Part shown: positions 2,497-18,893 of the stretch, in pieces
How positions within the stretch are numbered: the first letter of the stretch is position 1
How the letters are laid out: each line of letters starts with the position of its first letter
Source of the DNA: Mumia xiangluensis
Lineage (GTDB): Bacteria > Actinomycetota > Actinomycetes > Propionibacteriales > Nocardioidaceae
Reading direction: 5' to 3'
DNA: 64,000 nt
Assembly: GCF_010994095.1 (NCBI RefSeq)
Contig: NZ_WJYO01000004.1
Span: 124,001-188,000, forward strand
Translations under genes and position numbers: made by a program
Notes under the pieces: model-generated
The model's input: only the letters and a program-made list of their open reading frames with translations
What the model was told of the DNA's origin: nothing
Database searches by the model: none

Positions 2497-3585
2497 TTAC
2501 GCGTCGATGGTCCAGGTGTCGTTGCCGGTCAGGAGCTGCTGCAGGTTGCCCTTGCCCATGGTGCCGACGGCGGTGTCGAGCTGCTGGCGCGCGAGGTCGT
2601 CGTAGGCCGGTCGCTCCACCTGACGGAAGATGCCGATCGGTGCCCGGTCGAGGTGGCCGCCGTCGGTGAGGCGGCTGATCGCGAACGCGAGGGTCGGGTC
2701 GTCGGCGTGGGCGTCGTGGACGAGGACCTGGTCGCGGTTGGCGTCGCTGATCTCGACGGGCTCGATCGTCCCGGTCGCCGGGTTGCGGACGAGGCCGTGC
2801 TCGCCGTCCGGGCCGTAGGTGATCGGCTGGCCGTGCACGAGCGGGATCACCGCGTGGTCGCGGGTCGCGGGGTCCTTGATCGTGTCGAACGCGCCGTCGT
2901 TGAAGATCGGGCAGTTCTGGTAGATCTCGACCAGCGACGTGCCGCGGTGGGCCGCAGCCTCGCGCAGCACCCCGGTGAGGTGGTTGCGGTCGGTGTCGAT
3001 CGTGCGGGCGACGAAGCTGGCCTCGGCGCCGAGGGCCAGCGAGATCGGGTTGAACGGGTTGTCGAGGGAGCCCATCGGGGTCGACTTGGTGACCTTGCCG
3101 ATCTCGGAGGTGGGGGAGTACTGGCCCTTGGTGAGCCCGTAGATCCGGTTGTTGAACAGCAGGATCGTCATGTTGACGTTGCGGCGCAGCGCGTGGATCA
3201 GGTGGTTGCCGCCGATCGACAGCGCGTCGCCGTCGCCCGTGACGACCCACACCGACAGGTCGGAGCGGCTGGTCGCGAGGCCGGTGGCGATCGCCGGCGC
3301 ACGTCCGTGGATCGAGTGCATGCCGTAGGTGTCGAGGTAGTACGGGAAGCGCGACGAGCAGCCGATGCCCGAGACGAAGACGATGTTCTCGCGCTTGAGG
3401 CCCAGGTCGGGCAGGAAGCCCTGGACAGCCTTGAGCACCGCGTAGTCACCGCAGCCGGGGCACCAGCGCACCTCCTGGTCGGACGTGAACTCCTTGCCGG
3501 TCTGCTTCGCGTCCGCCGCGGGCATCCCGGCGAGTCCGTCGCGGGCCAAGGTCGGGGTGGGGAGGTCGGTGGTCGGGGTGCTCAT
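2497..3585 (-). CDS. korB: 2-oxoacid:ferredoxin oxidoreductase, beta subunit
   Basis: 362 aa. This is the thiamine-diphosphate-binding subunit of a 2-oxoacid:ferredoxin oxidoreductase. It shows an N-terminal CPGCGDYAVL motif near residue 42 and the ThDP/Mg2+ motif GDGDALSIGGNH in the middle. With the alpha subunit it would decarboxylate a 2-oxoacid (2-oxoglutarate is the usual substrate of the actinobacterial KorAB pair) to the acyl-CoA while reducing ferredoxin. Its start overlaps the stop of korA by 4 nt, so the two are translationally coupled. No 4Fe-4S ferredoxin domain is present in this subunit and no ferredoxin gene lies beside it, so the partner must be encoded elsewhere. Assignment to 2-oxoglutarate rather than pyruvate is from family knowledge, not from visible residues. 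Confidence 0.93.
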   Translation of the reverse strand: MSTPTTDLPTPTLARDGLAGMPAADAKQTGKEFTSDQEVRWCPGCGDYAVLKAVQGFLPDLGLKRENIVFVSGIGCSSRFPYYLDTYGMHSIHGRAPAIATGLATSRSDLSVWVVTGDGDALSIGGNHLIHALRRNVNMTILLFNNRIYGLTKGQYSPTSEIGKVTKSTPMGSLDNPFNPISLALGAEASFVARTIDTDRNHLTGVLREAAAHRGTSLVEIYQNCPIFNDGAFDTIKDPATRDHAVIPLVHGQPITYGPDGEHGLVRNPATGTIEPVEISDANRDQVLVHDAHADDPTLAFAISRLTDGGHLDRAPIGIFRQVERPAYDDLARQQLDTAVGTMGKGNLQQLLTGNDTWTIDA

Positions 3586-17466: not shown

Positions 17467-18893
17467 CGGTCGTGGACGCGATCGACTGGACCTCGGCCGG
17501 GGTGCCGCTGCTGGTGGCGGTCGGTGCGATCGTGGTGCTGGTCGTCGACGCCTTCTGGCCCGCGGGCGGGTGGCGCCGGTCCGGTACGCTCGCGATCGCG
17601 TCGCTGGCGGCCGCCGCGGCCTGGCTGGCCAACGGCGGGTCCAGCGGGGCGATCGTGGCCGGCTTCTCGTGGGTGATCCTGCTGTCGGCGCTCGCGGTGG
17701 TCCTGCTGGCGCAGGTGCTCGAGGACGACGCGCAGATGCCGGCGGGGGAGTCGGGCTTCCTCCTGCTGTCGGCCACCGCGGGGGCGCTCACCCTCGCGGC
17801 GGCGGACGACTTCGTGACGCTGGTCGTCGCGCTGGAGCTGTTGTCGCTCCCGTCGATCGCGCTGGTCGCGATGCGTCGCGACCGTGCCGCGGCGGTGTCG
17901 TCGGCGTGGACGTTCTTCATCGCGTCGGCGACGGCCACGGCGATCACGCTCATGGGGCTCTCGCTGCTGTACGGCGTCACCGGGACCCTGACGTACGAGG
18001 GTGTGCTCGTCGGCCTGCAGGACGACCGTGTCCCGGAGCGGACGACCGCGGTCGTGGTGGTGCTCGTCCTCGTCGGACTGGTGTTCAAGGTCGGAGCGGT
18101 GCCGTTCCACCTGTGGATCCCCGACGCGTACCGCGGCGCCTCGGTCCCGGTCGCGGCGTTCCTGTCGGTGGTCTCCAAGGGCGGCGCGCTGGCCGCCCTG
18201 CTCGTCGTCCTCGCGTACCCGTTCCTTCCCCTGCAGCCGCGCTGGGACATCTTCATCGCGGTCGTCGCCGCGCTGTCCATGACGATCGGCAACCTCGGCG
18301 CGCTGGCTCAGCGTGACGTGGTCGGGATGCTCGCCTGGTCGTCGATCGCCCAGGGCGGGTTCGTGCTGGCGCCGCTGGTCGCGGTGTCGCTCGGCTCCGA
18401 CGACATCCTGTCCGCGCCGCTGCGCTACCTCGCGGTGTACGCCATCGCGAACCTCACGGTGTTCGCGGTCGCCGCGGTCGGGCTGCGGACGCTCGGCGGC
18501 ACCTCGTACGCCCACTACGCCGGCGTGGCCCGCCGCCAGCCGTTGTTCGGCGTCGCGCTCGTGATGGGCCTGCTCGCCCTCGCGGGGTTCCCGCCTGCGG
18601 TGATCGGGCTGGTCGCGAAGTACGTCGTCCTCCAGCCGGTGATGCTGGGAGGCTACGCGTGGCTTGCCGTCGTGATGGCCTTCAACGTCGCCCTCGGGCT
18701 GGTCTACTACCTGCGGCTGGTCGTGGTCGCGTTCGCCCCGGCGGACCGCGTCGACGAAGGCGCCGTGGTCACCGGGGCCGCCGTCCGCGGGGGCCGCGGC
18801 ACCACGATCGCGTACTCGGTGGTCGCCATCGGGGTCGTCCTGCTGCTCGCCACGTCGGTCTACCCGACGCTCGTCTTCGGTCCGCTGCCCTGA
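17463..18893 (+). CDS. nuoN: NADH-quinone oxidoreductase subunit N-like
   Basis: 476 aa, the third antiporter-like subunit. It shows the pumping motifs in LVVALELLSLPSIALVA (Glu), FKVGAVPFHLWIPDAYRGA (Lys and His) and FLSVVSKGGALAALLVV (Lys). ATGA overlap with nuoM. It ends the cluster, so the set is A, B, C, H, I, J, K, L, M, N. The next gene begins 17 nt further on with its own probable promoter. Confidence 0.94.
   Translation: MTVVDAIDWTSAGVPLLVAVGAIVVLVVDAFWPAGGWRRSGTLAIASLAAAAAWLANGGSSGAIVAGFSWVILLSALAVVLLAQVLEDDAQMPAGESGFLLLSATAGALTLAAADDFVTLVVALELLSLPSIALVAMRRDRAAAVSSAWTFFIASATATAITLMGLSLLYGVTGTLTYEGVLVGLQDDRVPERTTAVVVVLVLVGLVFKVGAVPFHLWIPDAYRGASVPVAAFLSVVSKGGALAALLVVLAYPFLPLQPRWDIFIAVVAALSMTIGNLGALAQRDVVGMLAWSSIAQGGFVLAPLVAVSLGSDDILSAPLRYLAVYAIANLTVFAVAAVGLRTLGGTSYAHYAGVARRQPLFGVALVMGLLALAGFPPAVIGLVAKYVVLQPVMLGGYAWLAVVMAFNVALGLVYYLRLVVVAFAPADRVDEGAVVTGAAVRGGRGTTIAYSVVAIGVVLLLATSVYPTLVFGPLP

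Follow-up and report, generated by a model that had tools for sequence, protein, structure and literature searches.

A second complex I lacking the NADH module

We studied a 64,000-nucleotide stretch of the Mumia xiangluensis genome (hereafter the window; C4:124001-188000 in an assembly of nine contigs and 4.6 Mb), which carries a cluster of ten complex I genes, nuo2; the same genome also has a complete nuoA-N operon, nuo1. The cluster is a complex I without the N-module, the NADH-oxidising NuoEFG part, and thus of a known kind, in a split arrangement of the Streptomyces type and with an altered quinone site. Together with a second NuoD (NuoD2), encoded on a different contig, the ten gene products would form an 11-subunit complex predicted to accept electrons from a ferredoxin-type donor, to reduce menaquinone and to pump protons, a reading to which we assign, from sequence comparisons, a probability of about 0.72. 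Electrons would reach NuoI2 from a one-electron donor of low potential, most likely ferredoxin that KorAB has reduced or else KorAB, and would pass on to the N2 cluster of NuoB2; menaquinone would be reduced in a modified pocket, with Trp in place of the quinone Tyr, and its reduction would drive proton pumping. nuo1 would not be required, as one relative appears to have nuo2 alone, and in one clade the Q-module (B2, C2, D2 and I2) seems to persist without a membrane arm of its own, with the electron wire kept.

The ten genes lie on the plus strand in the order nuoA-B-C-H-I-J-K-L-M-N (10054-18893), and all ten open reading frames (ORFs) are open. Adjacent genes overlap, touch or are 8 nt apart, which bears out the order, the overlaps and the spacing of at most 8 nt described in the first-pass annotation of the window. 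All seven membrane subunits of an 11-subunit complex I (A, H, J, K, L, M and N) are present in the cluster, and the Q-module is divided between the cluster (B, C and I) and the separate NuoD2 locus. Homology search of the ten genes gave no match to nuoD, nuoE, nuoF or nuoG. The earlier claim that NuoD and NuoEFG are absent therefore holds for the cluster, but NuoD is not missing from the genome, where NuoD2 is encoded elsewhere and tracks the cluster.

NuoD2 as the probable missing subunit

A Pfam NuoD search of the genome, with full reading of the sequence found, located NuoD2 on contig C1 (L009:9522-10733; C1:61522-62730), with the usual HPATHG loop. The 20 kb fetched around it gave no match to a further nuo gene. 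The region is present twice in the assembly, in stretches of 19.8 kb on C1 (L009) and C8 (L010) that are 99.9% identical, probably an assembly duplication. The absence of NuoD had been singled out as the strangest part of the cluster; a genome-wide look for a complete nuoA-N set and for a stray nuoD found both, and the puzzle is resolved because NuoD2 is encoded at this separate locus. Loss of NuoD was thus rejected. We also rejected the idea, which arose from split Pfam matches, that NuoD2 is a subunit of a NiFe hydrogenase, given its HPATHG loop and its best matches in the PDB, which are NuoD and NDUFS2. The large subunit of group 4 NiFe hydrogenases carries NiFe-binding CxxC pairs, and no CxxC was present in the NuoD2 sequence as read.

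The distribution of NuoD2 was surveyed in 296 genomes of the class with completeness of at least 90, searched with NuoD2 and with NuoB2, and 45 genomes were searched in detail. Matches reaching the end of the query were called NuoD2, and those stopping near residue 328 were called NuoD1. All survey counts for NuoD2, NuoB2 and KorA are among the matches listed, which may leave out NuoD2 relatives matching more weakly than about 1e-66. NuoD2 and NuoB2 occurred together in 113 genomes, NuoD2 alone in two (the drafts G169 and G289), NuoB2 alone in none and neither in 181. These counts take the NuoB2 fragments of G005, G029 and G044 as present, and some genomes counted as NuoD2-negative carry a second, weak NuoD match. 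Fisher's test of the association gives p 5e-81, a value that ignores shared ancestry, and this uncorrected kinship counts against our interpretation.

In other classes the subunit is found inside the cluster. From 246 genomes searched across the phylum we fetched 20 loci of other classes, and all 16 whose NuoD carries Trp at the quinone position (Trp-type, see below) have the order A-B-C-D-H-I-J-K-L-M-N, with nuoD inside and without E, F or G. Comparison of gene content across actinobacteria thus gave a divided picture: within the class NuoB2 recurs with NuoD2 in 113/296 genomes; the Trp-type clusters of other classes contain nuoD and have no KorAB in the stretch fetched. Because of the co-occurrence, and because a relative of NuoD2 is encoded inside the same cluster in other classes, we assign NuoD2 to the nuo2 complex as a probable subunit. 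Of 20 nuoD2 loci from relatives (19 of the reduced, or mini, form described below and that of G169), 11-12 share the genes that flank nuoD2 in Mumia xiangluensis, named on inspection as ftsH and a folK-like gene; a single ancestral relocation would leave such a pattern. Our set of named loci consists of the best 80 of 580 relatives, in which full-type Streptomyces and their kin predominate; among these, nuoD lies inside the cluster in one locus, of an Actinomycetota metagenome-assembled genome, and in none of the 47 from Streptomyces. NuoC2 and NuoL2 are both present in 42 of these 47 Streptomyces loci, the remaining five not having been looked at singly.

A relative with nuo2 as its only complex I found

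It has been suggested for Streptomyces, in the passages available of PMC9239103, that Nuo2 subunits form a hybrid, in which they would replace their counterparts in the main complex I and share NuoDEFG of nuo1; a differential use of NuoL2 and NuoM2 is likewise suggested in the accessible part of PMC3765725. The existence of a dedicated NuoD2 that co-occurs closely with NuoB2 argues against this, as does G111, a genome of family f29 in the same class, assembled in about 60 contigs with completeness 100. Its single NuoB and single NuoD matches are both of type 2, its locus L105 holds the full A-B-C-H-I-J-K-L-M-N cluster, and it has no match to the NuoF-type domain PF10589, versus 42/43 searched genomes that have one. 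nuo2 with NuoD2 appears to be the sole complex I of G111, if the assembly is complete, which speaks against an obligatory hybrid with nuo1. We therefore set aside the sharing of NuoD1 as our leading interpretation and consider a hybrid improbable, with one point in its favor coming from the mini genomes (see below). G111 is also not among the genomes with a KorA match, and this speaks equally against KorAB as the obligatory donor of an independent Nuo2.

KorAB linkage and the electron donor

The genes for a 2-oxoacid:acceptor oxidoreductase, korA and korB, lie on the minus strand 4.5 kb before nuoA2, and their proximity to nuo2, which the first-pass annotation had pointed out, is found again in relatives. 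Of 61 class loci fetched (59 with A2/B2), 36 hold KorA too, and in all 36 the two are head to head. In 19 of 23 mini loci the KorA and NuoB2 matches are separated by no more than 364 bp, and in the other four by 2.2-2.4 kb; the KorA distance in full loci is at most 379 bp in four of 13 and 2.0-5.6 kb in the rest. Among mini genomes, 28/37 have a KorA match and 23/37 have it head to head at the nuo2 locus. Over the whole survey KorA was matched in 229/296 genomes, 102 of the 115 with NuoD2 and 127 of the 181 without, where absence means that a genome is not in the list of matched genomes and the weak match of G029 (6.5e-72) is counted as present.

By their family models KorA and KorB form a 2-oxoacid oxidoreductase, and the 2-oxoglutarate equivalogs match below cut-off; we infer 2-oxoglutarate as the substrate. 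NuoI2 also matches, again below cut-off, models of the delta (ferredoxin-like) subunits of 2-oxoacid oxidoreductases, and one may guess that it stands in for such a subunit. Feeding of Nuo2 by ferredoxin is plausible. The proposal of a ferredoxin-fed quinone reductase is upheld as far as the linkage of KorAB goes; the feeding itself is something that we infer, and it has to be reconciled with several observations that weigh against it. No KorA match was found in 13 of the 115 NuoD2 genomes, including G111, and the unmatched genomes include nine mini and two full ones (G111 and G224). KorA is common in genomes without NuoD2, and in seven of these (G034, G075, G142, G186, G212, G227 and G229) KorAB lies 20-23 kb from nuoB1, so that part of its proximity to nuo2 may be old synteny with nuo1. 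Within the stretches fetched, none of the 20 other-class loci holds KorAB.

As an obligatory donor KorAB is weakened by the NuoD2 genomes without a KorA match. The same genomes, together with the position of KorAB near nuoB1 and its absence from the other-class loci, favor the view that the donor is neither ferredoxin nor KorAB and that the KorAB neighborhood is historical; the electrons might then come, for example, from a flavoprotein or an F420H2 dehydrogenase with its genes at another locus. Such a donor is a serious possibility, but we lean away from it in view of the large share of NuoD2 genomes in which KorA is found, the invariable head-to-head orientation and the short distances in most mini loci.

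A tryptophan at the quinone site of NuoD2

In NuoD2 of the window genome the quinone tyrosine of NuoD is replaced by Trp, NRHDW being aligned to DRLDY of three PDB sequences. We take this tyrosine to be Tyr108 in the bovine and Tyr87 in the Thermus numbering. Trp occupies the position in 50/50 class rows labelled full (which include G169 and G289), in 37/37 mini rows and in 16/20 other-class loci; the class rows amount to 87 aligned sequences of the 115 found, and the four Tyr-type other-class loci are the most basal in the D2 tree. NuoD1 has Tyr at the same site in four readable sequences, a fifth being a fragment. Both His of the HPATHG loop are kept in 50/50 full rows, and one of them is replaced in 8/37 mini NuoD2, in which the Trp is still present.

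According to the part of the literature seen, Tyr87 is functionally critical and was proposed to donate a proton to quinone (PMC5552823), and the beta1-beta2 loop of the NuoD-type subunit takes part in binding the headgroup (PMC6206036). Because Trp cannot donate that proton, presumably another residue does so or the chemistry of the acceptor differs. The loss of the quinone Tyr could also mean that the acceptor is not quinone, which would go against the predicted reduction of menaquinone. That quinone is no longer reduced, the Trp marking a different acceptor, would suit its presence in all 87 class sequences, even where the neighboring loop His is lost, and the high conservation of the Trp region in mini forms while presumed quinone contacts decay (see below). 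We nonetheless hold this to be rather unlikely for the full forms, which keep both His of the loop, a conserved NuoB2 loop and the checked residues of NuoH2.

Catalytic residues and selection on the full form

In the window proteins the four N2 cysteines of NuoB2 and the eight 4Fe-4S cysteines of NuoI2, the ligands of clusters N6a and N6b, are aligned and kept. The four are kept in every NuoB2 having the column (39 full and 37 mini sequences aligned) and the eight in every NuoI2 having it (19 full and 36 mini). The checked Glu, Lys and acidic residues of L, M, N, H, K and A are kept in 16-18 aligned full sequences, with the exception of gaps in M and of Met for one Lys in three NuoN2. The alignments agree here with the first-pass annotation, by which the iron-sulfur (Fe-S) cysteines of NuoB and NuoI and the pumping residues of NuoL, NuoM and NuoN had been kept; they show no damage to the Fe-S ligands, to the pumping residues or to the quinone-loop regions of the full form.

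The ratio of nonsynonymous to synonymous substitution rates (dN/dS) of B, C, D and I is 0.08-0.16 when the window genome is compared with a congeneric species. This purifying selection already contradicts the view that nuo2 is a decaying, non-functional duplicate, as do the ten open genes of the window and the catalytic residues kept in nearly all aligned full forms. Genome G026, in which nuoJ-N are absent from the locus and nuoH2 is cut to a remnant, would suit such decay, to which we give hardly any credence for nuo2 as a whole.

A reduced form without its own membrane arm

The NuoB2 locus of 37 genomes holds nuoB2-C2-I2 in a row, with nuoD2 elsewhere, and in many of these mini loci nuoN1 lies a few kb away. 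Matches to C2 and to I2 came from 36 of the 37 in each case, the locus of G208 being cut by a contig end. NuoB, NuoD and NuoH were sought genome-wide in the mini genomes, and type-2 A and J-N at the fetched loci. In the NuoH search of 45 genomes each of the 37 has one NuoH, of the nuo1 type, and no second one was found.

The mini forms make up one clade in three trees, with support of 0.999 for D2 (including G169 and G289), 0.997 for B-C-D-I (36 tips) and 1.0 for B-C-I without D (36 tips). Their placement differs between the trees, which is a difficulty for our account: they fall within the full forms, beside family f15, in the D2 and B-C-D-I trees, and beside nearly all full forms in the B-C-I tree, so that a sister relationship to the full forms of f15 is weakened. 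The 11-gene clusters of other classes are basal in all three trees, and for this reason the membrane arm was most likely lost, rather than gained, in the mini clade. The dN/dS of mini forms is below 1 wherever computable (0.07 to 0.74 in 13 pairs, some with saturated dS), which indicates that the reduced set is under selection.

We compared the mini forms with 16 other-class relatives at the sites on which at least 90% of full forms agree (the four Tyr-type loci, G169 and G289 were left out; the segments were chosen after viewing the sequences). Mini NuoB2 keeps 15% of the sites in the loop from the CC pair to the third Cys, versus 74% in the other classes, and 21% versus 70% in the stretch just before the CC pair, while 81% versus 99% are kept between the third and fourth Cys. 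At the N-terminus of NuoI2 the values are 35% and 89%. In NuoD2 they are 59% and 88% for the HPATHG loop, 40% and 69% for the stretch NRILNH...ITPIFY, and 93% and 74% for the Trp region. Over whole proteins 50% versus 86% of the sites are kept in NuoB2 and 68% versus 72% in NuoD2. We take the eroded regions for the contacts with quinone and with the membrane arm, following known complex I structures and the papers cited above. The pattern would fit a Q-module that still carries electrons although it is detached from the membrane and no longer serves quinone.

The lack of a second NuoH in the 37 mini genomes is the point that favors a hybrid, as the Q-module would there need the arm of nuo1 if it works at the membrane; with the NuoB2 quinone loop and the NuoI2 N-terminus so eroded, docking on that arm looks unlikely. 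We tentatively propose instead that the mini clade has a soluble Fe-S complex of B2, C2, I2 and D2 that works with KorAB and passes electrons from a 2-oxoacid, probably 2-oxoglutarate, to an acceptor that is possibly not a quinone, the membrane-bound form of the window being the older state of the same Trp-pocket enzyme.

A second, separate reduction is seen in G026, a single-contig genome placed among the full forms. Its nuoH2, with internal deletions, is reduced to a 123-residue remnant; the locus has a shortened nuoA2 and no J-N, and the reading frames of B2, C2, I2 and D2 are open across their conserved regions. The same genome has another complex I-like membrane-arm cluster (L146:7678-15662) with homologues of NuoA, H, K, L, M and N; a 407-residue ORF without Pfam match lies between A and H, and no match to B, C, D or I was seen there.

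Gene inventory and surroundings of the cluster

The cluster begins with nuoA2 (10054..10428), a complex I chain 3 that matches PF00507 (E 2.8e-32) and keeps its acidic residues; this gene and the nine that follow are on the plus strand. nuoB2 (10419..11024) encodes the 20 kDa subunit with the N2 cluster, identified by PF01058 in the longer ORF form, by the alignment of its cysteines and by an NCBIfam NuoB match above cut-off. By codon inspection its start is likely a GTG, at either 10419 or 10425; the region 10422-11021 was used as the search query. The 30 kDa subunit is encoded by nuoC2 (11033..11791; PF00329, E 2.1e-27, longer ORF form), with a TIGR01961 match under the cut-off of that model, and the ND1-like subunit, its acidic residues kept, by nuoH2 (11784..12737; PF00146, E 2.4e-100, longer ORF form). 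nuoI2 (12734..13381), for the subunit with two 4Fe-4S clusters, was recognized by Fer4 families in the longer ORF form and by cysteine alignment. The C-terminal tail of NuoI2 (13240-13381) is repetitive and rich in Glu, Lys and Ala, with about four units of 12 residues. They are followed by nuoJ2 (13378..13881; PF00499, longer ORF form) and nuoK2 (13881..14213; PF00420), which keeps Glu35 and Glu73. The three antiporter-like subunits were identified by homology to the NuoL1, NuoM1 and NuoN1 of the same genome: nuoL2 (14210..15955) keeps Glu123, Lys206 and Lys374, nuoM2 (15952..17466) keeps Glu141, Lys226, Lys257 and Glu400, and in nuoN2 (17463..18893) Glu125, Lys209, Lys239 and Lys386 are present.

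On the minus strand, korA (3582..5555) encodes the alpha subunit, with POR and POR_N in one chain (PF01558 and PF01855; TIGR03710 above cut-off), and korB (2497..3585) the beta subunit (PF02775; TIGR02177 match just under cut-off). Between korA and nuoA2 lie genes for an M28 peptidase (5659-7257) and a subtilase, as well as an ORF whose TPR matches are weak and do not reach the cut-off. The subtilase gene (7950-10055), on the strand opposite to nuo2, also encodes an Ig-like domain and adjoins nuoA2, and an RNase H gene (18910-19362) comes after nuoN2. The nuo1 operon lies on the same contig at about 105990-121675 (L008), 12 kb upstream of nuo2. PF10589 matches its NuoF and, more weakly, a second place in the genome (C3:578611-578859); extra matches are seen in many other genomes too. 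Among the loci of relatives, nuoB2 is ~4.9 kb from nuoC2-H2 in L107 (G082) and ~2.6 kb in L145 (G175), with no nuoA2 match in the fetched stretch, and L103 and L104 have gaps of ~1.6 and ~3.8 kb between nuoH2 and nuoI2, filled by sequence without nuo match.

Comparison with known systems

NDH-1 of cyanobacteria and chloroplasts takes electrons from ferredoxin. Like Nuo2, it has 11 core subunits without NuoEFG, as stated in the accessible part of PMC11238625. The 11-subunit enzyme described there shares with the window cluster the subunit set, the lack of NuoEFG and an open question of the donor; its nuoD, however, is in the operon and its host is a strict anaerobe, whereas here nuoD lies apart and a full nuo1 coexists. 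In the Chloroflexi 2M complex I, by the text available, nuoBCDI are separate from the operon, much as Q-module genes are separate from the arm here (PMC7117926); that complex has its membrane-arm cluster on another contig, whereas no second NuoH was found for the mini form. With Fpo, the F420H2 dehydrogenase of Methanosarcina, NuoD2 has in common that it lacks a segment of ~36 residues of NuoD1 and aligns over nearly the whole FpoD model. It spans nearly all of NF008974, a model of NuoD, as well; lack of the segment is thus not peculiar to Fpo, and the FpoD match of NuoD2 is far under the cut-off (299.7 of 600 bits).

The closest relatives are in Streptomyces, for which the passages available describe extra nuo genes (nuoA2, B2, D2 and further ones as far as N2) that form a cluster except for nuoD2, which is located separately (PMC3765725, 2013; PMC8388888, 2021). 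A later paper, in the part seen, calls the function of Streptomyces nuo2 unclear and says that it lacks NuoCDEFG and L (PMC9239103, 2022). As in the window, Streptomyces nuo2 (SCO4599-SCO4608) is a second cluster without N-module, with divergent genes upstream and nuoD2 elsewhere, by the excerpts available (PMC3765725, PMC8388888, PMC9239103, PMC9739823). Its gene order, A-B-C-H-I-J-K-L-M-N with D apart and D2 elsewhere, is that of the window cluster. In these excerpts two of the papers list no nuoC2 and one denies NuoC and NuoL, whereas the window has both NuoC2 and NuoL2. The Trp pocket, the 11-gene order of other classes, a genome with nuo2 only and a form without membrane arm are absent from the same Streptomyces passages. 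We found no account of the Trp pocket in the literature searched, where subscription papers mostly fall outside and long result lists were viewed at the top, and none of a nuo2 without membrane arm within the same coverage; a nuo2-only genome was not met in print either.

Implications for complex I in this group

With nuoD2 and nuoC2 included, the Streptomyces-type nuo2 reaches the full 11 subunits, so that a hybrid with nuo1 is not needed as an explanation. The replacement of Tyr by Trp in all 87 aligned NuoD2 of the class, with the checked pump residues kept, is a natural test of the role of that tyrosine. The clade that has the Q-module only, often beside korAB, suggests that complex I is separable in evolution, and that its electron wire may be useful without a proton pump of its own.

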